A DNA stretch of 10,431 bases from an uncultured Erysipelotrichaceae bacterium (GTDB lineage: Bacteria > Bacillota_I > Bacilli_A > RF39 > UBA660), in the NCBI GenBank assembly GCA_902803685.1, contig CADCQR010000027.1, forward strand, positions 1 to 10,431, in the 5' to 3' direction. This document shows, piece by piece, positions 1,870 to 10,431 of this stretch. Positions within the stretch are counted from its first letter, which is position 1. Every line of letters begins with the position of its first letter. The notes under the pieces are model-generated. The model saw only the letters and a program-made list of their open reading frames with translations, was not told the DNA's origin and made no database searches. Position numbers and translations under genes: made by a program.

Positions 1870-3108
1870 TTACTTTAATTCAATTTTTAGGAATACTTTT
1901 TTACCTTTTTGAATAATTAATATATTATCTATAAAGTCTTTTTCAGTAATTATTTTATTATAGTTATTTTCCTTTTTTTGGTTTAATCTAATACCATTTT
2001 GTTCTATTAGTCTTCGGGCATTGGACTTTGAAGTTGCAATTCCAACATCAACCAATAAATCCAATATGTTAATGTCTAATTTTTCTTTTGAATAAGATAT
2101 TGAAGGCATATCATTAGTCGTTAGATTGCCTGAAAACAATTCTTTAGCTGCTTTCTGTGCTCTTTTTGCTTCCCCCTCACCGTGGACTAACTTTGTAACC
2201 TCAAACGCCAAAATTCTTTTTGCTTCTCTAATATCATTAGAACAAAGTTCCTTTATTTCTGCTATTTCTAATCTAGTAAAAAAGGATAAGCATCTTTCAA
2301 CGTCTTCATCAAAAATATTAATCCACGCTTGAAAAAAATCAAATGGCGTAGTTTTATTTCTCGATATCCATAGAGTACCACTAGCTGTTTTGCCCATTTT
2401 CTCACCATCGGCTTTTATTAGTAATGGACAAGTGAAGCCAAATAATGGATCTATTCTAATGCCTTCGCTAAATCCTATCTTCCGAGACAAATCTACTCCG
2501 GCCAATATATTCCCCCATTGGTCTGAGCCACCGATTTGTAATTTGCAGCCATATTCTTTATTTAAATGTACGAAATCAAAAGCTTGCATTAGCATGTATC
2601 CCATTTCTAAAAAAGTTAAACCACCATTTCCTAATCTTTTTTTATAGCATTCGGCTGATAACATATTATTGACATTAAAATGAACTCCAATATCTCGCAT
2701 AAAGTCAATATACGTCTTATCACTTATCCAATCTGAATTATCAACGATAATAGCTGGATTATCTCCATCTGTTCTTACAAATCTTTTAACTAGTTGTTTA
2801 ACTTCTGCTTTATTATGTGCAACCTCGTCTTTAGAGAGCATTTTTCTCATTCCAACTTTCCCAGTAGGATCACCAATCAAGGCAGTAGCGCCACCAATTA
2901 AAATGATTCCATGATGACCAAAGTCTTGCAGCCATCTAAATAACGTCAATGCAAAGAAATGTCCTATGTGCAAACTATCAGCGGTTGGGTCAATCCCTAA
3001 ATAAAATGTCATAGGCTCCCCATTGATTAAGTCAATTATTTCTTTTTCATGGGTTAAGGCCTTAACATAGCCTCGTTCATCCAATATATCAAATAGTTTT
3101 TTGTTCAT
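1870..3108 (-). CDS. tyrS: Tyrosyl-tRNA synthetase
   Basis: A 412-residue class I synthetase that attaches tyrosine to tRNA-Tyr in the cytoplasm. The Rossmann catalytic domain has HIGH at 47-50 (within ADSLHIGHF), the Tyr-binding region GGSDQWGN at 193-200, and a KMSKS-equivalent KMGKT at 237-241. Residues from about 345 to the end form the S4-like RNA-binding domain (DVGIATSKSNARRLIEQNG) that contacts the tRNA. Length and architecture are those of the bacterial TyrS family, and nothing essential is missing. AGGAGGAA lies six bases before the ATG. Expression is controlled by a consensus promoter and a tyrosine T-box, and probably also by a Tyr-rich short ORF that overlaps its first 20 bases. 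It leads an operon with the DUF84 NTPase and the phosphatase-like hydrolase. Confidence 0.97.
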   Translation of the reverse strand: MNKKLFDILDERGYVKALTHEKEIIDLINGEPMTFYLGIDPTADSLHIGHFFALTLFRWLQDFGHHGIILIGGATALIGDPTGKVGMRKMLSKDEVAHNKAEVKQLVKRFVRTDGDNPAIIVDNSDWISDKTYIDFMRDIGVHFNVNNMLSAECYKKRLGNGGLTFLEMGYMLMQAFDFVHLNKEYGCKLQIGGSDQWGNILAGVDLSRKIGFSEGIRIDPLFGFTCPLLIKADGEKMGKTASGTLWISRNKTTPFDFFQAWINIFDEDVERCLSFFTRLEIAEIKELCSNDIREAKRILAFEVTKLVHGEGEAKRAQKAAKELFSGNLTTNDMPSISYSKEKLDINILDLLVDVGIATSKSNARRLIEQNGIRLNQKKENNYNKIITEKDFIDNILIIQKGKKVFLKIELK

Positions 3109-3204: not shown

Positions 3205-3246
3205 AATAAAAAACGAGCAAACATCTGCAAAGGACGAATTGCTCGT
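3205..3246 (-). terminator. T-box leader terminator upstream of tyrS
   Basis: On the minus strand ACGAGCAA (3246-3239) pairs perfectly with TTGCTCGT (3220-3213) around an 18-base loop, followed by TTTTTT. The upstream arm overlaps the T-box sequence, as expected for the terminator that competes with the antiterminator. Uncharged tRNA-Tyr binding should disrupt it. Confidence 0.88.
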
Positions 3247-3421
3247 GGTACCACCTTTTTTTGTAATAATAGTTTATTACCTCTTGTTTATAACGGATAC
3301 TATCCGACTTAAAATCATCACTTGTAATTCATTACTTTCATCTTACTTATTTTCACCAACCATAAGCTCTCTACTAAGAAATTAAAATAACTACTTTGAA
3401 TGAATCGTCTTTTAATTAACT
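3205..3421 (-). promoter_or_regulatory. T-box riboswitch (tyrosine) controlling tyrS
   Basis: The leader senses uncharged tRNA-Tyr and switches a terminator to an antiterminator. Landmarks on the minus strand, in order, are AGAGAG at 3372-3367, the GGTGAAAAT box in 3360-3346, a specifier-loop codon TAC (Tyr) followed by A at 3326-3324, the stem III inverted repeat CGGATAGTATCCG at 3306-3294 ending in CCGTTA, the T-box AGGTGGTACCACG at 3256-3244, and the terminator. The T-box contains the UGGU-type stretch that pairs with the tRNA acceptor end. The specifier agrees with the downstream gene. Transcription should start near 3421, seven bases past the -10 box. Confidence 0.93.
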
Positions 3422-3507: not shown

Positions 3508-5919
3508 TTACAAGATAATATTAATTATTTTATTTTTAATATAGATAATTCTTTTAATATCAGAATTAATTAAATTTGGATATGTTGATTTAATCATATT
3601 TATTATTTCTTTTTCGTCATTAATAGAAGAATCTATCAAAATATTCTTTTTAAATTTACCATTTATTTGAATTGGCATAGTTATTTCTTTTTTTACTAGA
3701 TATTGATCTTCATATTGAGGCCAATGATCATCAACTATATTTCCACCAAAAATCATTTCGTACATTTCACTTGTGATGTGAGGAGCCAATGGATTAAGGA
3801 GAATTAGAAATATTCTCAATTCTTCTTTTGTTATAAAATTATCTTTTTTGATAACATTGATAAATGTCATTAGAGAAGCTATGGCAGTATTTAGCTTTAG
3901 ATTTTCGATATCCTCAGTAACCTTTTTAATAAGGGCATTTATTTCATAAATATGCTTGGATGATACTTTATCATTTTTTACAATATCCTTTAATTTCCAG
4001 ACTTTATTAATAAAATTAATAATACCTGTTATTCCATCATATGTCCATGGTGTGTTATCTTCATACGCTCCCAAGAAATGGACATGCAGTCTTGCTACAT
4101 CAGCACCATATTCGTCTATTACTTGCATTGGAGAAACTCCATTAGTGGAACTTTTGCTCATCTTTTTGCCAGTATCATCTAGTATTAAACCACTTCCCAT
4201 TTTTCTTATGAATGGATTTCTTGTAGGTACAGCCCCTATTTCATACAAAAAGTTTTGCCAGAAAAATGCATACAAAACATGTCTGGTTATATGCTCAGTT
4301 CCCCCTGTATAACAATCTACACTTCCCCAATATTTCAATTTTTCATAATCGGCAAAAGCCTTGTCATTATGAGGATCGCAATATCTTAGCCAATACCAAG
4401 AAGATCCAGCCCAATTAGGCATCGTATCTGTTTCCCTTTTTGCATTACCACCACAATTTGGACACTTACAATTAACCCATTCATCTATCTTTGATAGTGG
4501 CGAATTACCAGTTTCATTTGGCATATAATCAGCAGTATGTGGAAGTACAAGTGGCAAATCAGAATCAGCTAGTGAAACTATTCCACATTTATCACAAAAT
4601 ACCACCGGGAAGGGCTCTCCCCAATATCTTTGTCTGTTAAATGACCAATCTTGCATTTTATAATTAATCTGTTTCTTACCAAAGCCAAGCTTGGTTACTT
4701 TAGCGATTATTTTTTCTTTTGCCTCTTTAACAGGCATACTATTGAATTCTTCAGAGTTAAGCATAATACTGTTATCTTTTATATAATCATATTTTTCATA
4801 TGCTTGCCTGCTTATGTCACCAGCAATTACTTGAATCATTGGAATGTCAAACTTTTGGGCAAACTCATAATCTCTTTGATCATGAGCCGGAACAGCCATG
4901 ACAATTCCCGTACCGTAATTGGCAAGGACAAAATCCGCAACATAAACAGGCACCTTATTTCCATTAATAGGATTAATTGCATATATCCCCTCGAGTATAC
5001 AACCGTTTTTTTCTTTTTGATTTGACATCCTATCCAGCTGACTTCTATAAGCGGTTTGATTTCTATATTTCATAACTTCATCATAATTATTTATTGAGTC
5101 TTTCCACTGATTAATTAACTCATGCTCTGGAGCCATGACAAGAAATGTTATTCCATAAATTGTTTCAATACATGTTGTAAATATAGATGAAGAGGTAAGT
5201 TTCTTATTGTTTTTGTCAACTATATCAAACTTAACTTCCATACCTTCACTTTTACCAATCCAATTTCTTTGTAGTTCTTTCAAGTTTTCATTCATTTCAA
5301 TCTTATCCACATTTTCAAGAAGTTTTTCTGAATATTCTTTCATTTTTAGAAACCATACCATTCTTTCTTCTTGCACTACTTTCCCATGACATCTATCACA
5401 TTCTCCGCCTTGAGAATCTTCATTAGATAGAACTGTCTTACAATTAGGGCAAAAGTTAACAACCCCCTTTCGCTTATATGCTTTGCCAACTTCAAAAAAT
5501 TTTTTAAAAATCCACTGTGTCCACTTGTAATAACTTGGATCACTAGTACATATTGTTCTATCCCAGTCAAAAGACAGTCCAATTTTTCTTGATTGTTCCA
5601 TGGCCTTGTCCATTCCGTTCTTTACAAACTCCTCGGGGTTAATTCCTGTCTTAATAGCCGCATTTTCTGCTGGCAAACCAAATGCATCTCCACCAATGGG
5701 GAAAAGTACATTATACCCCTGTAGCCTTTTCATTCTTGATAATGCATCCGCTGGAACAGTCCCTTTCAAATGTCCCATATGAAGATTGCCGCTAATATTA
5801 TAAAATTCATAAAGTACATAATATTTTGGTTTTGTCGGATGGAAATCTATTGCTTTAAAACTTTTTTCGTTATACCATTTATCTTGCCATTTTTTCTCTA
5901 TTTCTTTAAAATTATACAT
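3508..5919 (-). CDS. leuS: Leucyl-tRNA synthetase
   Basis: An 803-residue class I synthetase that charges tRNA-Leu. From the N-terminus: HIGH variant HMGH (47-50), GGDAFGLPAENAAIK (76-90), a zinc-binding pair CPNC (157-160) and CDRC (174-177), a CP1 editing domain (about 220-400) with GTGIVMAVPAHDQRDYEF including the conserved Asp (D347), a second Cys cluster CDKC (442-445) and CKCPNC (484-489), TGGTEH near 538-543, KMSKS (586-590), then the anticodon-binding and C-terminal domains. The editing motif normally read TTRPDT is TTCIET here (248-253), an unusual variant. Start: ATG at 5919, eight bases after AAGGG. The GTG at 5928 lies within that ribosome binding site and is unlikely to be used. 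Its upstream region has a Leu-codon attenuator instead of a T-box. Confidence 0.96.
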   Translation of the reverse strand: MYNFKEIEKKWQDKWYNEKSFKAIDFHPTKPKYYVLYEFYNISGNLHMGHLKGTVPADALSRMKRLQGYNVLFPIGGDAFGLPAENAAIKTGINPEEFVKNGMDKAMEQSRKIGLSFDWDRTICTSDPSYYKWTQWIFKKFFEVGKAYKRKGVVNFCPNCKTVLSNEDSQGGECDRCHGKVVQEERMVWFLKMKEYSEKLLENVDKIEMNENLKELQRNWIGKSEGMEVKFDIVDKNNKKLTSSSIFTTCIETIYGITFLVMAPEHELINQWKDSINNYDEVMKYRNQTAYRSQLDRMSNQKEKNGCILEGIYAINPINGNKVPVYVADFVLANYGTGIVMAVPAHDQRDYEFAQKFDIPMIQVIAGDISRQAYEKYDYIKDNSIMLNSEEFNSMPVKEAKEKIIAKVTKLGFGKKQINYKMQDWSFNRQRYWGEPFPVVFCDKCGIVSLADSDLPLVLPHTADYMPNETGNSPLSKIDEWVNCKCPNCGGNAKRETDTMPNWAGSSWYWLRYCDPHNDKAFADYEKLKYWGSVDCYTGGTEHITRHVLYAFFWQNFLYEIGAVPTRNPFIRKMGSGLILDDTGKKMSKSSTNGVSPMQVIDEYGADVARLHVHFLGAYEDNTPWTYDGITGIINFINKVWKLKDIVKNDKVSSKHIYEINALIKKVTEDIENLKLNTAIASLMTFINVIKKDNFITKEELRIFLILLNPLAPHITSEMYEMIFGGNIVDDHWPQYEDQYLVKKEITMPIQINGKFKKNILIDSSINDEKEIINMIKSTYPNLINSDIKRIIYIKNKIINIIL

Positions 5920-5939: not shown

Positions 5940-5977
5940 AAAAATAGAGTCAACACTTAATGTAGCATTGACTCTAT
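5940..5977 (-). terminator. leuS attenuator terminator (3:4 hairpin)
   Basis: On the minus strand ATAGAGTCAATGCT (5977-5964) pairs along all 14 positions with AGTGTTGACTCTAT (5957-5944), with two G-U wobbles at the inner end and the six-base loop ACATTA. UUUUU follows (5944-5940). It stands 25 bases upstream of the leuS start, between the leader peptide stop and the leuS ribosome binding site. That makes it a regulated stop and not the end of an operon. Confidence 0.93.
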
Positions 5978-6111
5978 ATGAATTACTTATTTTTAATATT
6001 TATTAAAATGCACTCAAAATAGACCCATTACTACATAATCGGTTTAATAATAAGTCTAATAATAAATTATTAATTACAATCATATTTTTCATAGTCTATT
6101 TCCTCCAACTG
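5944..6111 (-). promoter_or_regulatory. Ribosome-mediated transcription attenuator of leuS
   Basis: The leader can form three mutually exclusive hairpins. 1:2 protector: TAGACTTATTATTA (6058-6045) pairs with TAGTAATGGGTCTA (6033-6020) at all 14 positions (three G-U), and strand 1 spans the Leu codons. 2:3 antiterminator: ATGTAGTAATGGGTCTAT (6036-6019) pairs with ATAGAGTCAATGCTACAT (5977-5960) at 16 of 18 positions. 3:4 is the terminator at 5977-5944. Inferred action: a ribosome stalled at Leu codons masks strand 1, strand 2 captures strand 3, and leuS is transcribed. When leucyl-tRNA is plentiful the peptide is finished, 1:2 forms, and the terminator folds. This is the logic known from enteric trp and leu operons. 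There is no T-box motif anywhere in this leader. The 5' end is estimated from the promoter. Confidence 0.9.
6003..6092 (-). CDS. Leucine-rich leader peptide of leuS
   Basis: A 29-codon ORF beginning MKNMIVINN and continuing LLLDLLLNRL, with eight Leu codons (seven TTA, one TTG). Six of them fall in a seven-codon block at 6065-6045. GGAGG at 6106-6102 stands nine bases before the ATG at 6092, close to ideal. It stops at 6003, 26 bases upstream of the attenuator terminator. The role is to gauge charged tRNA-Leu by ribosome pausing; the peptide itself probably has no function. TTA is the commonest Leu codon in AT-rich genomes, so the run likely reads the general Leu supply. The Leu block coincides with strand 1 of the protector hairpin, which argues strongly against chance. 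Confidence 0.9.
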   Translation of the reverse strand: MKNMIVINNLLLDLLLNRLCSNGSILSAF

Positions 6112-6117
6112 ACTAAT

Positions 6118-6146
6118 ATTTTACACTATTTGTGTCAAGATGTCAA
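6118..6146 (-). promoter_or_regulatory. Sigma-A promoter of leuS
   Basis: Minus strand TTGACA (6146-6141), a 17-base spacer, and TAAAAT (6123-6118). It lies in the gap after the IMPase-like gene stop at 6166, so leuS has its own promoter. A second TTGACA-like hexamer inside the spacer is too close to the -10 box to serve. Confidence 0.88.
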
Positions 6147-7730: not shown

Positions 7731-9011
7731 TTATTTTATTACCTCTATTCCACTTAAATATGGTCTTAAAACTTCTGGTACAGTTACACTACCATCAGCA
7801 TTTTGATATTGCTCAACAATAGCTGGAACCAATCTACTAGTAGCTAATCCGCTACCATTTAGTGTAGATACATAATGTAAATTTCCCGCATTATCACGAT
7901 ACTTTGTATTATTTCTTCTTGCTTGATAATCTCTACTGTTAGATACACTACTTACTTCCTTATATATTCCCATACTTGGAATCCAAACTTCGATATCATA
8001 AGTCCTACACATTCCCTGTGCACAATCACCAGCAGCAAGTTTACTTACTTGATAATGTAGTCCCAAACTTTTCATTAAACCCTCTGCAATATTTAATAAT
8101 TCAGTAAATGCTTCCTCAGTCTTATCTTCAGTTACATACTGAACCATCTCTACTTTATTAAATTGATGACCTCTAATCGTTCCTCTTTCCTCCTCACGAG
8201 AACTACCTGCCTCAACTCTGAAGCACTGGGTATAAGCAAAATATTTTTTTGGAAGCTCATCCATACTAATTATTTCATTACTATGTATATTTACAAGCCC
8301 TGTTTCGGCCGTTGGCAATAAAAACTTCATGTTATTTTCATTACCATCTTCATTCTTAATCATATATACTTCATCATTAAATTTTGGAAACTGACCAGCT
8401 CCAAAGCCACAATCATATTTTAACATATAAGGCAGCATCATAAATTGAAAGCCATTTTTTAAATGCGTGTCAATAAAATAATTTATTAATGCCCACTCAA
8501 GCCTAGCACCTATCCCCGTATAAATCCAACTTTTTTCTCCAGCTATCTTTATACCACGCTCATAGTCTATCATCTTTAAATCTCTTAAAATCTCATAATG
8601 TGGCTTCAATTTAAAATCATAAACACGTTGTTCTAAATGCCTCGTTATGACCTCATTATTTTCTTTTCCGCCGGCAGATATATCGTCATCAGGAATATTA
8701 GGTAGACCAGCTAAATAATCAAATATCTTTTTATCTAATTCATTATATTTAATCATCCCATCATCTATTTTATTTCCTAATTCTTTCATTTCTTTTACTA
8801 TGTCATCGACAGTTTTTCCTGCTCTTTTTAAATTGGCAATATTATCACTTGCTTTTTTTCTATCTGCACGATACTGATCCATTATTGTACCAATTTGTCG
8901 TTTTTCTCTATCCCATTCTAATAGCTCAGCTAAATTTACATTATCCATTCTTTTTAATAATGCTTTTTCAACTAATTCTTTATTATTTCTAATTTTATTT
9001 ATATCTATCAT
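7731..9011 (-). CDS. serS: Seryl-tRNA synthetase
   Basis: A 426-residue class II synthetase that charges tRNA-Ser. The first ~105 residues form the charged, helical tRNA-binding arm, ending at the typical LPNIPDDD (103-110). The catalytic domain has the TAE loop (234-236), motif 2 FRVEAGSSREEERGTIRGHQF (264-284, split here as FRVEAGSS and REEERGTIRGHQF), EVWIPSMGIYKEVSSVSN (341-358), DYQARR (361-366), and motif 3 LNGSGLATSRLVPAIVEQYQ (384-403). Several positions differ from the common bacterial SerRS pattern (see findings), though all core elements are present. The ATG at 9011 follows AAAGGAATAATTAAT, a moderate ribosome binding site. A consensus promoter and a serine T-box lie upstream. The GNAT and IMPase-like genes follow in the same direction. 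Confidence 0.96.
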   Translation of the reverse strand: MIDINKIRNNKELVEKALLKRMDNVNLAELLEWDREKRQIGTIMDQYRADRKKASDNIANLKRAGKTVDDIVKEMKELGNKIDDGMIKYNELDKKIFDYLAGLPNIPDDDISAGGKENNEVITRHLEQRVYDFKLKPHYEILRDLKMIDYERGIKIAGEKSWIYTGIGARLEWALINYFIDTHLKNGFQFMMLPYMLKYDCGFGAGQFPKFNDEVYMIKNEDGNENNMKFLLPTAETGLVNIHSNEIISMDELPKKYFAYTQCFRVEAGSSREEERGTIRGHQFNKVEMVQYVTEDKTEEAFTELLNIAEGLMKSLGLHYQVSKLAAGDCAQGMCRTYDIEVWIPSMGIYKEVSSVSNSRDYQARRNNTKYRDNAGNLHYVSTLNGSGLATSRLVPAIVEQYQNADGSVTVPEVLRPYLSGIEVIK

Positions 9012-9053: not shown

Positions 9054-9092
9054 TCAGGATCGTTCAATCATCCACTTATAAATATTTTTCAT
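9054..9092 (-). CDS. Possible 12-codon leader ORF before serS
   Basis: A short ORF (MKNIYKWMIERS) lies between the serS T-box terminator and serS. GGGGGG nine bases upstream could pair with the 16S tail through one G-U; an ATG at 9101 in the same frame would make it 15 codons. The only Ser codon in the 12-codon form is the last sense codon. The stop abuts a 16-base palindrome AGTATTAATTAATACT (9054-9039). It is listed because leuS and tyrS have leader ORFs in the same place. Ser enrichment is lacking, so it may be fortuitous. Confidence 0.25.
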   Translation of the reverse strand: MKNIYKWMIERS

Positions 9093-9112
9093 TTTGCTCA
9101 TCCCCCCAAAAT

Positions 9113-9159
9113 AACAAAAAAGATGATACCTTAGGAGTGCATAAAGCACGGTACCATCC
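9113..9159 (-). terminator. T-box leader terminator upstream of serS
   Basis: On the minus strand GGATGGTACC (9159-9150) pairs with GGTATCATCT (9130-9121) with two wobbles, enclosing a small inner hairpin GTGC/GCAC, then TTTTTTGTTAT. The upstream arm overlaps the T-box, so the hairpin competes with the antiterminator. Confidence 0.88.
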
Positions 9160-9310
9160 TTTTTTTCACTTAATTTGAATAACGGCTATTAACCGAAAAT
9201 GTTTGCATTTCACTCAAAGGTAGAAACTTTTAATCAATTTTATTATCTTTCACCAAACGATAACTCTCTACTAAAACTTTATAAAAGTCATATCCTCATC
9301 AAAGATTTAT
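9113..9310 (-). promoter_or_regulatory. T-box riboswitch (serine) controlling serS
   Basis: Minus-strand landmarks in order are AGAGAG at 9269-9264, the GGTGAAAG box at 9254-9247, a specifier-loop candidate TCT (Ser) followed by A at 9224-9222, the stem III repeat CGGTTAATAGCCG ending in CCGTTA (9185-9180), the T-box AGGATGGTACCGTG at 9160-9147, and the terminator. Uncharged tRNA-Ser should stabilise the antiterminator and let serS be transcribed. The specifier matches the gene; its exact placement in the loop is by eye. Confidence 0.92.
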
Positions 9311-9316
9311 GTATGA

Positions 9317-9450: not shown

Positions 9451-9774
9451 TTATTCATTTGTATTGGATTCTTTTACACTATCATAAAATTGCCTTTTAA
9501 CTTCAGCTTCTGTTTGAACTAATATTGTATTTAATTGCTTTTGATCATCATCCTGACATCCCACGAAATACACTTTATCTATTTCATCATGATTAAAAGC
9601 GATGGTATGATCACTTTCAATAATTCCCTCTGGAAAATGACATGCACCATAATCAAATATCTTCGGATTGCTATTTTCTCCAGTTCCGAAAACTAAGTAA
9701 CTAGTGATCATTATTTTTTTATTAGCTTCTTTTAACTGAACTACACTACCTATTGGTAAAAATTTCTCTTTCAT
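9451..9774 (-). CDS. DUF4176 family protein (type VII secretion-associated)
   Basis: A 107-residue protein resembling DUF4176: an opening LPIGSVVQLKEANKKIMITS, a central Y/F-D-Y-x-x-C-x-F-P-E-G segment (FDYGACHFPEGI, 40-51), and FNHDEIDKVYFVGCQDD near 60-76. These small soluble proteins are commonly encoded within type VII (ESX/Yuk-like) secretion loci of Bacillota; their role is not established. Its ATG shares four bases with the stop of the upstream gene (ATGA), and GAGGAG of its ribosome binding site is within the upstream coding end, so the two are probably translationally coupled. It is the last gene before the serS promoter. The family call is from recalled motifs and is fairly secure. 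Confidence 0.8.
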   Translation of the reverse strand: MKEKFLPIGSVVQLKEANKKIMITSYLVFGTGENSNPKIFDYGACHFPEGIIESDHTIAFNHDEIDKVYFVGCQDDDQKQLNTILVQTEAEVKRQFYDSVKESNTNE

Positions 9775-10431
9775 AAAATCTCCTCATCATTGTTATTTCT
9801 ATTTTCGTCTTCATCTTCTTCTTCGTTATCATCAGAATTTTTCTTATTATGTATTGCATTAGCTATAGTACCAATAACACCTGCTGCTGCGCCTATAGTT
9901 GCGCCAGCTATTACAGAATTTGATATACCACTACTTTGACGAGTTCCACCAGAAATTCCTGTATTTGGTATTGATACATATTCCGTTACTGGTGGATTTG
10001 TATATGTTGCGACAGGTGCCTGTGTATATGTAACTATTGGGGTTGTCGGTATTGGCGTTGTGATTGGAATTTGTGTCGTTGTCACTGGAATTGGAATTTG
10101 TGTCGTCGTCACTGGAATTGGAATTTGTGTCGTTGTCACTGGAATTGGTGGATCAGTCGGTGATGGTGGCACAATAGTAACTGTGCTGCTTGGCATATCT
10201 ATAATATCTTCAATTGGTTTTTCTGTTCTAGTAATTGGAGGAGGGATAATCACTTGTCGTTTATGTCCAACTACAACTGGGTCAGCTACTTTAGGAGGTA
10301 TTGGGGTTGGAGTTGGTACTGCTAGACCAGTTTCGCCTTTTGGTTCTGGTACTGCTAGACCAGTTTCGCCTTTTGGCTCTGGTACTGCTAGACCAGTTTC
10401 GCCTTTTGGCTCTGGTACTGCTAGACCAGTT
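9771..10431 (-). CDS. Repeat-rich Pro/Thr protein with glycine-zipper segment and acidic tail (5' end outside window)
   Basis: The reading frame is open to the window edge, so the 219 residues seen are only the C-terminal part. The order is: 11-residue repeats EPKGETGLAVP (three full copies plus a part), a TPTPIPP linker, a Pro-rich stretch with three 9-residue repeats of the TTTQIPIPV kind, GISGGTRQSSGISNS, a 21-residue Gly/Ala/Ile segment VIAGATIGAAAGVIGTIANA followed by I, then HNKK and an acidic tail of about 20 residues (EEEDEDENRNNNDEEIL at the end). The hydrophobic segment has GxxxGxxxG spacing and may be a membrane helix or glycine zipper; Lys after it would put the tail inside the cell. 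The GTG at 10253 is an internal Val, not a start. The coupled DUF4176 gene suggests a type VII secretion locus. I do not recognise the family. Confidence 0.75.
   Translation of the reverse strand, partial: TGLAVPEPKGETGLAVPEPKGETGLAVPEPKGETGLAVPTPTPIPPKVADPVVVGHKRQVIIPPPITRTEKPIEDIIDMPSSTVTIVPPSPTDPPIPVTTTQIPIPVTTTQIPIPVTTTQIPITTPIPTTPIVTYTQAPVATYTNPPVTEYVSIPNTGISGGTRQSSGISNSVIAGATIGAAAGVIGTIANAIHNKKNSDDNEEEDEDENRNNNDEEIL
10066..10146. repeat. Three tandem 27-bp coding repeats
   Basis: Unit GGAATTTGTGTCGTTGTCAC then TGGAATT on the plus strand, at 10066-10092, 10093-10119 and 10120-10146. Only one base differs among the three (T to C in the middle copy). They encode a nine-residue Thr/Pro unit (TTTQIPIPV register) in the partial protein on the minus strand. 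Confidence 0.93.
10315..10431. repeat. Tandem 33-bp coding repeats running off the window
   Basis: Three full units (10315-10347, 10348-10380, 10381-10413) and a fourth cut by the window end. Each begins GGTACTGCTAGACCAGTTTC on the plus strand. The copies differ only at one synonymous position (GGT versus GGC). They encode EPKGETGLAVP on the minus strand. Near identity implies recent expansion or homogenisation, so copy number may vary between strains. Confidence 0.95.

Follow-up and report, generated by a model that had tools for sequence, protein, structure and literature searches.

The window, by which we mean the whole stretch of 10,431 nucleotides analysed here, carries on its minus strand, in this order, serS, an acetyltransferase gene, an inositol-phosphatase-like gene, leuS, tyrS, an ITPase-like gene and a phosphodiesterase-like gene. 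The gap between the inositol-phosphatase-like gene and leuS holds, on the same strand, a promoter, a leader ORF and a terminator. The elements of this region are as follows:

6118..6146, minus strand: promoter of the leader and leuS, TTGACA, 17 nt, TAAAAT (11/12 consensus matches)
6106-6102, minus strand: Shine-Dalgarno sequence GGAGG of the leader ORF
6093..6102, minus strand: second strand-1 candidate GAAAUAGACU, between the Shine-Dalgarno sequence and the start codon (exhaustive pairing)
6003..6092, minus strand: leader ORF MKNMIVINNLLLDLLLNRLCSNGSILSAF with its stop (ATG at 6092, stop at 6005-6003, 29 codons)
6045..6058, minus strand: strand 1 UAGACUUAUUAUUA, on Leu codons 14-16 (exhaustive pairing)
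6016..6036, minus strand: strand 2 AUGUAGUAAUGGGUCUAUUUU, common to both 1:2 pairings and to 2:3
5960..5977, minus strand: strand 3 AUAGAGUCAAUGCUACAU, antiterminator partner of 6036-6019 (16/18)
5944..5977, minus strand: intrinsic terminator (strands 3:4), 14 bp, with a U tract to 5940
3508..5919, minus strand: leuS, the putatively controlled gene (803 aa; TIGR00396, 829 bits)

The leader and its conservation

The leader ORF contains eight Leu codons, of which seven are UUA (codons 10-12, 14-16 and 19). At the window's own TTA rate, at least seven TTA in 29 codons correspond to p = 4e-5 and at least eight Leu to p = 1.5e-3, values that are a rough guide because the leader ORF was chosen in advance. 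The initial annotation had described a leader-peptide attenuator at this site. Brute-force pairing confirmed its 14-bp 3:4 terminator (5977-5964/5957-5944, 14/14 pairs), with the five U it reported obtained only if the last stem base is counted. The 2:3 antiterminator of 16 out of 18 positions (6036-6019/5977-5960) was recovered by exhaustive pairing and outperformed all 500 shuffled versions of strand 2. On the Leu side, brute-force pairing of strand 1 with strand 2 (6058-6045/6033-6020) gave 14/14 pairs, three of them G-U. The same strand 2 also pairs with GAAAUAGACU (6102-6093/6025-6016, 10/10); this Shine-Dalgarno-side pairing, absent from the initial annotation, is the one used by the minimum-energy fold of the window leader. 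The fold of the 175-nt leader has a z-score of -3.88, and 1 of 200 shuffles was equally good. Upstream of leuS neither a T-box stem I nor a T-box antiterminator was found at either threshold, in a search that did find the T-boxes of serS and tyrS, and no other Rfam family matched the leader.

A search upstream of leuS in related genomes, as had been proposed, showed a Leu-rich ORF followed by a terminator before leuS in the draft genomes of 11 relatives (G001-G010 and G396), and the LeuRS of G001-G010 is 74-86% identical to that of the window. Metagenome contigs contribute 119 listed relatives at 83-87% identity. Among 80 leuS loci, all of which were scored for strand 2 and 60 of which had their upstream regions read, the exact 27-base strand-2 pattern was present in nine, and L006 carries it with one mismatch. 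The distribution of the leader was obtained from patterns with 2-3 mismatches, so that diverged leaders were possibly missed, and the leader of G002 is interrupted by a contig end. A covariance model retrieved 11 of 74 sources at E < 1e-4, namely the window and ten loci, ten of these 11 being its own training rows. Twelve leaders could be translated (the window, ten leuS loci and the G414 leader described below; L001 and L091 are near-copies), and in all 12 predicted ORFs a Shine-Dalgarno sequence, an ATG and an in-frame Leu block are present. The block begins 24, 27 or 30 nt from the ATG and each leader has 4-8 TTA codons. The residues preceding the block are variable, and Tyr, Cys, Phe or Ser stands at some of the Leu positions.

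At the RNA level the leaders vary little. The -35 hexamer is TTGACA in 9/10 aligned leaders (TTGACT in L010), and in all 11 aligned leaders the terminator retains 14/14 pairs and the 2:3 duplex 14-16 of 18; the latter beats 500/500 shuffles in eight leaders and 499/500 in the other three. The Shine-Dalgarno-side 1:2 pairing keeps 9-10 of 10 pairs in 11/11 leaders, the Leu-side pairing 12-14 of 14, and strand 2 is nearly invariant, with a single G to T change in L006. Retention of the Leu block, ORF, Shine-Dalgarno sequence, terminator and 2:3 complementarity in the relatives supports the earlier reading of a leader-peptide attenuator. The compensatory changes that had been expected in the stems did not appear: 0 of 35 pairs show a double change in the relatives' leaders, because the attenuator strands hardly vary, which makes this result uninformative rather than contrary. 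A 1-nt deletion in the G414 leader alters the peptide downstream of the Leu block, giving the peptide MKNIRNNSSYLYLLLTDYVVMGLF, and strands 2-4 are intact, strand 2 being retained despite the shift of reading frame; the RNA is therefore the thing kept. Conservation of the leader C-terminus at the peptide level was considered and is ruled out by this frameshifted, RNA-conserved leader.

The leader is patchily distributed, being present in 3/35 genomes of the genus of G001 (one of which is G414), 1/8 of that of G003 and 1/3 of that of G007. Order- and family-wide samples gave 2/385 and 2/386 genomes, all of them cases already known. No match to the leader was found in phages, nor to its exact 25-base pattern in viral contigs. 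Carriage on plasmids was also considered and set aside, as 16 plasmid records matched at most 30% of the query and were judged to be chance matches of AT-rich sequence.

We also modelled the folding of the 11 leaders. The perfect 14-position 1:2 hairpin on the Leu codons, put forward in the initial annotation, holds as a pairing but is predicted to be weak: its pair probability, calculated without a ribosome and ahead of strand 4, reaches 0.21 in L004 and is 0.00 in each of the remaining ten leaders. With a ribosome stalled on the UUA block, again before strand 4, the mean pair probability of 2:3 is approximately 0.57-0.86, save for stalls at Leu codons L12 or L16 (L006) and L11 or L15 (G414). 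If the ribosome is placed at the stop codon, 2:3 is reduced in 9/11 leaders (not in L005 and L006), in G414 to 0.00. Without a ribosome, 2:3 forms at equilibrium in 9/11 leaders (0.64-0.86) and the Shine-Dalgarno-side 1:2 pairing leads in L006 and G414 alone. Once the RNA is full-length, the terminator remains at 0.9 or above at every stall site tested in 6/11 leaders, and falls below 0.9 at some UUA stall in the other five (window 0.59, L091 0.39, L005 0.13, L008 0.87 and L010 0.69). Equilibrium folding of the 11 leaders does not show a switch. Since the terminator persists and 2:3 forms without a ribosome at equilibrium, the switch must be kinetic, as in trp; the calculations are compatible with such a switch and are not proof of it.

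An accessory LeuRS type and the scarcity of TTA codons in its leader-preceded genes

Eight of the 11 genomes with a leader-preceded leuS have another, divergent LeuRS, 39-50% identical to that of the window in the best pieces; it was not found in G001, G009 and G010, three draft genomes of unstated completeness. On the tree these second LeuRS cluster separately (13 rows, support 93/76), and the rows with a leader fall into two groups (support 100/100 and 86/66). The second leuS lies behind a T-box at 7/9 loci, none being found at L153 or at L156, which is a short contig, and no T-box was found at the 7/7 leader-leuS loci scanned, the window included. The view that synthetase genes in Bacillota are generally regulated by T-boxes thus holds for most of the relatives' other leuS genes and does not extend to the window leuS, which appears to be a second, patchily distributed one. 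Between T-box and leuS there is a hydrophobic ORF of 115-132 aa at 10/10 loci (L154, L155, L157-L161, L003, L009 and L063). G007 has three leuS genes (L157, L158 and L008), two of them behind T-boxes; this draft could be a mixed assembly.

In G011-G013 a window-type LeuRS without leader is the only LeuRS match, and its gene is located behind a T-box and a hydrophobic ORF like those just described. This leaderless trio adjoins the window's group on the tree (support 93/81), and it seems that the accessory type took, or kept, the housekeeping place in these genomes. Downstream of leuS at L001 and L152 lie genes for a relaxase of the Mob_Pre type and a large serine recombinase, L152 has a transposase gene upstream as well, and the L006 locus also has a large serine recombinase; the scan for mobile elements took in ten chosen neighbour proteins, and other loci may have some too. 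Judged by sequence comparison, the gene would be a patchily spread second type of LeuRS, with the spare-copy status of the window's own gene read from its relatives.

The editing domain of the window LeuRS has the Thr-rich motif FTTCIET where the canonical motif is FTTRPDT, and many members of the clade share FTTCIET; the regular expression used for this motif missed several rows, L005 and L010 included. The altered motif (TTCIET for TTRPDT) was considered as a mark of resistance and dropped, as leaderless and Clostridia members share it.

The leader-controlled leuS genes hardly use the codon that dominates their leaders. In the window leuS, TTA makes up 5/49 Leu codons counted from the ATG (5/50 from stop to stop), against 90/176 in neighbouring genes (p = 8e-8). 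At 10 of the 12 leader-leuS loci the TTA share is 2-15%, with p-values per locus between 8e-8 and 8e-16. L008 is an exception (28/62 against 14/20 in its neighbours, p = 0.07), and L012 is a weaker case (13/61) that has no neighbours for comparison. When nine loci were pooled, leaving out L008 and L012 and representing L001 by its near-copy L152, TTA accounted for 41/471 Leu codons in leader-leuS and 1100/1944 in neighbours, with a p-value of 9e-89 that overstates independence because the leader loci are related. In the same pool the codons of every other amino acid showed no deviation at p < 1e-4, and we therefore rejected the possibility that the depletion is a relic of a GC-richer foreign donor. 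The GC3 of leader-leuS is within 0.05 of that of its neighbours in 8/9 loci (0.30 vs. 0.19 in L011).

LeuRS genes without the leader do not share this property. The three leaderless sister genes use TTA for 112/175 Leu codons, like their neighbours (549/807), and at 38 shared Leu sites with TTA in the leaderless L009 the window has a different Leu codon at 36. More distant leaderless LeuRS genes have a neighbour-like TTA share at 15/15 Clostridia loci (Fisher p at least 0.06), with three additional loci yielding no row, and the second leuS genes have 46-70% TTA at 9/9 loci. Separate tRNA-Leu with anticodons CAA, UAA and GAG were seen in G396, where some tRNA stretches were examined, and therefore tRNA-Leu(UAA) may be dispensable for reading UUG and CUU. 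In G006 the anticodons CAA, UAG and GAG were found, and no UAA was seen in the stretches examined. According to PMC1183508, charging drops to different degrees during starvation among isoacceptors for the same amino acid, and leaders use the sensitive codon; in an E. coli model, leuL is sensitive and the leu structural genes are robust (PMC3783181, in part). The depletion of TTA in the controlled genes is independent support for sensing of tRNA-Leu(UAA).

Proposed mechanism, precedents and alternatives

Taken together, our sequence comparisons suggest, with a probability of about 0.82, that the leuS leader is a ribosome-mediated transcription attenuator that senses the charging of tRNA-Leu(UAA), and that the LeuRS type under its control is accessory and spread horizontally. 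When tRNA-Leu(UAA) is charged, the ribosome on the leader would pass the UUA block and strand 2, which would leave strand 3 free for the terminator, and leuS would be off. When charging fails, the ribosome would stall at the UUA codons 10-16, strand 2 would pair with strand 3, and RNA polymerase would read through, provided that the kinetics of the switch permit. The trigger would accordingly be loss of charged tRNA-Leu(UAA), and the product a backup LeuRS, made from an mRNA that is nearly free of UUA and therefore translatable during that loss. The proposal presumes another leuS in the window's own genome. As to what causes the loss in nature, we see roughly even odds that it is inhibition of the other LeuRS, rather than plain leucine hunger, and that the gene serves survival of an inhibitor.

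The main new content is the accessory nature of leuS and the purge of the sensed codon. One gene here looks like selection embodying selective charging, as the leader uses one Leu codon and the rescue gene is almost without it, in contrast to the leaderless sister genes that do not avoid the sensed codon. It also adds a leader-peptide-regulated synthetase gene in Bacillota, with the other copy on a T-box. A Streptomyces gene for an auxiliary, antibiotic-resistant TrpRS is reportedly under ribosome-mediated attenuation (Vecchione and Sello 2010). The likeness is a spare synthetase induced by loss of charging; the amino acid and the phylum are different, and resistance is in the title there and a conjecture here.

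Further precedents can be drawn from partial descriptions in the literature. According to the text available of PMC1262725, classical attenuators are predicted for Streptomyces leuS and trpS2, and synthetase genes in Firmicutes are mostly under T-boxes, none under classical attenuation. The window shares with these Streptomyces genes a leader peptide of cognate codons, an antiterminator and a terminator before a synthetase gene; Streptomyces belongs to the Actinobacteria, and the available description includes no mobile second gene or codon depletion (PMC1262725). The view in the initial annotation that attenuation is best known outside Bacillota has to be qualified, as there are precedents within the phylum, each known to us from part of its source (PMC2965389, PMC5794164, PMC4191407). 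For the Bacillus paralogs hisS*/hisZ, His leader peptides are predicted, and as in our case a duplicated synthetase-family gene has a leader peptide and the main copy is on a T-box; they differ in concerning histidine and in being duplication paralogs, and neither mobility nor codon depletion is in the available part of the description (PMC2965389). The ilv-leu operon of S. aureus, for which the excerpt includes experiments, has a Leu-rich attenuator and is likewise a Leu-dependent leader-peptide system in a low-GC Gram-positive, differing in that it is a biosynthetic operon (PMC5794164). AgnB2, in the section available, is a plasmid-borne LeuRS for self-immunity against agrocin 84 in Agrobacterium, hence also an accessory LeuRS on a mobile element; the host differs, and the role there is producer immunity, whereas resistance of the window enzyme is a conjecture (PMC5059758). 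In the open-licence literature, with subscription journals mostly outside, we found no description of a second, mobile leuS preceded by a leader of this sort, nor of such codon depletion.

The same attenuator could instead respond to ordinary leucine starvation, the second LeuRS raising the charging capacity. This explanation, which we hold at clearly less than even odds, leaves unexplained the patchiness of the gene type (2/35 in one genus), the mobile-element neighbours at three loci, the separate LeuRS lineage and the use of the same leader on a kinase gene. What it does account for is the T-box control of the other leuS (7/9 loci), where LeuRS supply is tuned to charging, and the logic of control codons and structural gene fits starvation theory, selective charging being the rationale for codon choice in the parts available of PMC1183508 and PMC3783181.

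The kinase gene is found in one genome. In G414 the leader precedes a gene whose 639-aa product contains two kinase regions of the APH type (tandem-APH); TTA accounts for 38/64 of this gene's Leu codons, i.e. is not avoided. Adjoining it are ANT(9)-like and APH(2'')-like genes, whose bit scores (66 of 340 and 227 of 475) are far below the curated cut-offs. The contig (L151, 64-7038) also has ABC-transporter-like genes, and of four proteins scanned in NCBIfam none reaches a curated cut-off. With the lack of TTA avoidance and these resistance-like neighbours, the locus lends itself to a drug-sensing leader, i.e. that a ribosome antibiotic arrests the hydrophobic peptide (cf. the erm and bmrB leaders) as part of a general resistance response, and antibiotic-induced, ribosome-mediated attenuation is reported for bmrCD of B. 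subtilis (PMC4191407, in part). We consider this improbable: a LeuRS would not protect the cell from a ribosome drug, there would be no reason for leuS to be depleted of TTA, and the variable residues before the Leu block and the Leu replacements are unlike an arrest motif.

Somewhat less probable still is that the leader responds to tRNA-Leu(UAA) itself being destroyed or inactivated, e.g. by an anticodon nuclease, and not to failure of charging; leader and gene do single out UUA, one isoacceptor, with the codons of other amino acids normal, but an extra LeuRS cannot restore a broken tRNA and selective charging accounts for effects on a single isoacceptor. That the leader is decorative, with leuS constitutive and the terminator part of something else, is very improbable given that ORF and frame are kept in 12/12 leaders and all strands in 11/11 aligned ones, one of them frameshifted, and the absence of clean switching in the equilibrium folds is what speaks for it.

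The serS and tyrS genes of the window

Besides leuS, the window has two further synthetase genes, each preceded by a T-box leader:

7731..9011, minus strand: serS, accessory type (judged by identity to the relatives' SerRS)
9130..9311, minus strand: T-box leader of serS (75.9 bits, under the Rfam cut-off of 93; E = 1.4e-15)
1870..3108, minus strand: tyrS (product 33-44% identical to the one TyrRS match in each of 15 relatives)
3227..3417, minus strand: T-box leader of tyrS (104.7 bits)

In 14 relatives the main SerRS shares 28-34% identity with the window enzyme; a second SerRS present in G414 shares 85%, and a fragment that lies upstream of G007's leader-leuS shares 88%. The specifier of the serS T-box was read by eye as UCU, using the alignment of its G414 relative; UGC was also considered and dropped, since by eye the UGC stretch belongs to the next stem. 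TCN codons are scarce in the window serS, with 4/19 Ser codons against 79/121 in six other window genes (p = 4e-4), and in the accessory-type serS of G414 (2/15), compared to 9-15 of 22-30 in six other SerRS genes. In B. subtilis starved of serine, ribosome density goes up at UCN and not at AGC/AGU codons, according to the part of PMC3862929 available to us. For tyrS, the identity of 33-44% does not decide, and it is perhaps a third accessory synthetase gene.

We tentatively propose, at somewhat less than even odds, that the window belongs to a mobile set of emergency genes that counter aminoacyl-tRNA synthetase inhibitors. Such a set would comprise a spare LeuRS, a spare SerRS and perhaps a TyrRS, each with its own charging sensor (a UUA leader, a T-box and a T-box, respectively), and the genes for LeuRS and SerRS would have been cleared of the sensed codons (TTA, and TCN with UCU as the likely specifier). 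The UUA leader would be portable, and re-used before a kinase that possibly inactivates an inhibitor. This suggests that gut bacteria exchange inducible spare synthetases; natural inhibitors of LeuRS (and SerRS) would then be expected in the gut habitat.

A short ORF, MSKMKNIYKWMIERS, lies between the T-box and serS in the window (9054-9101, minus strand). Its counterpart in G414, identified by eye, is MKYILLWTVERS (motif at 2839-2828 of L162, minus strand). Both end in GAACGATCCTGA, with a Ser codon beside the stop, and this ORF is possibly a second layer of control. At the edge of the window (9451-10430, minus strand) there is a protein with the tandem repeats PVTTTQIPI and GLAVPEPKGET, followed by a DUF4176 protein.
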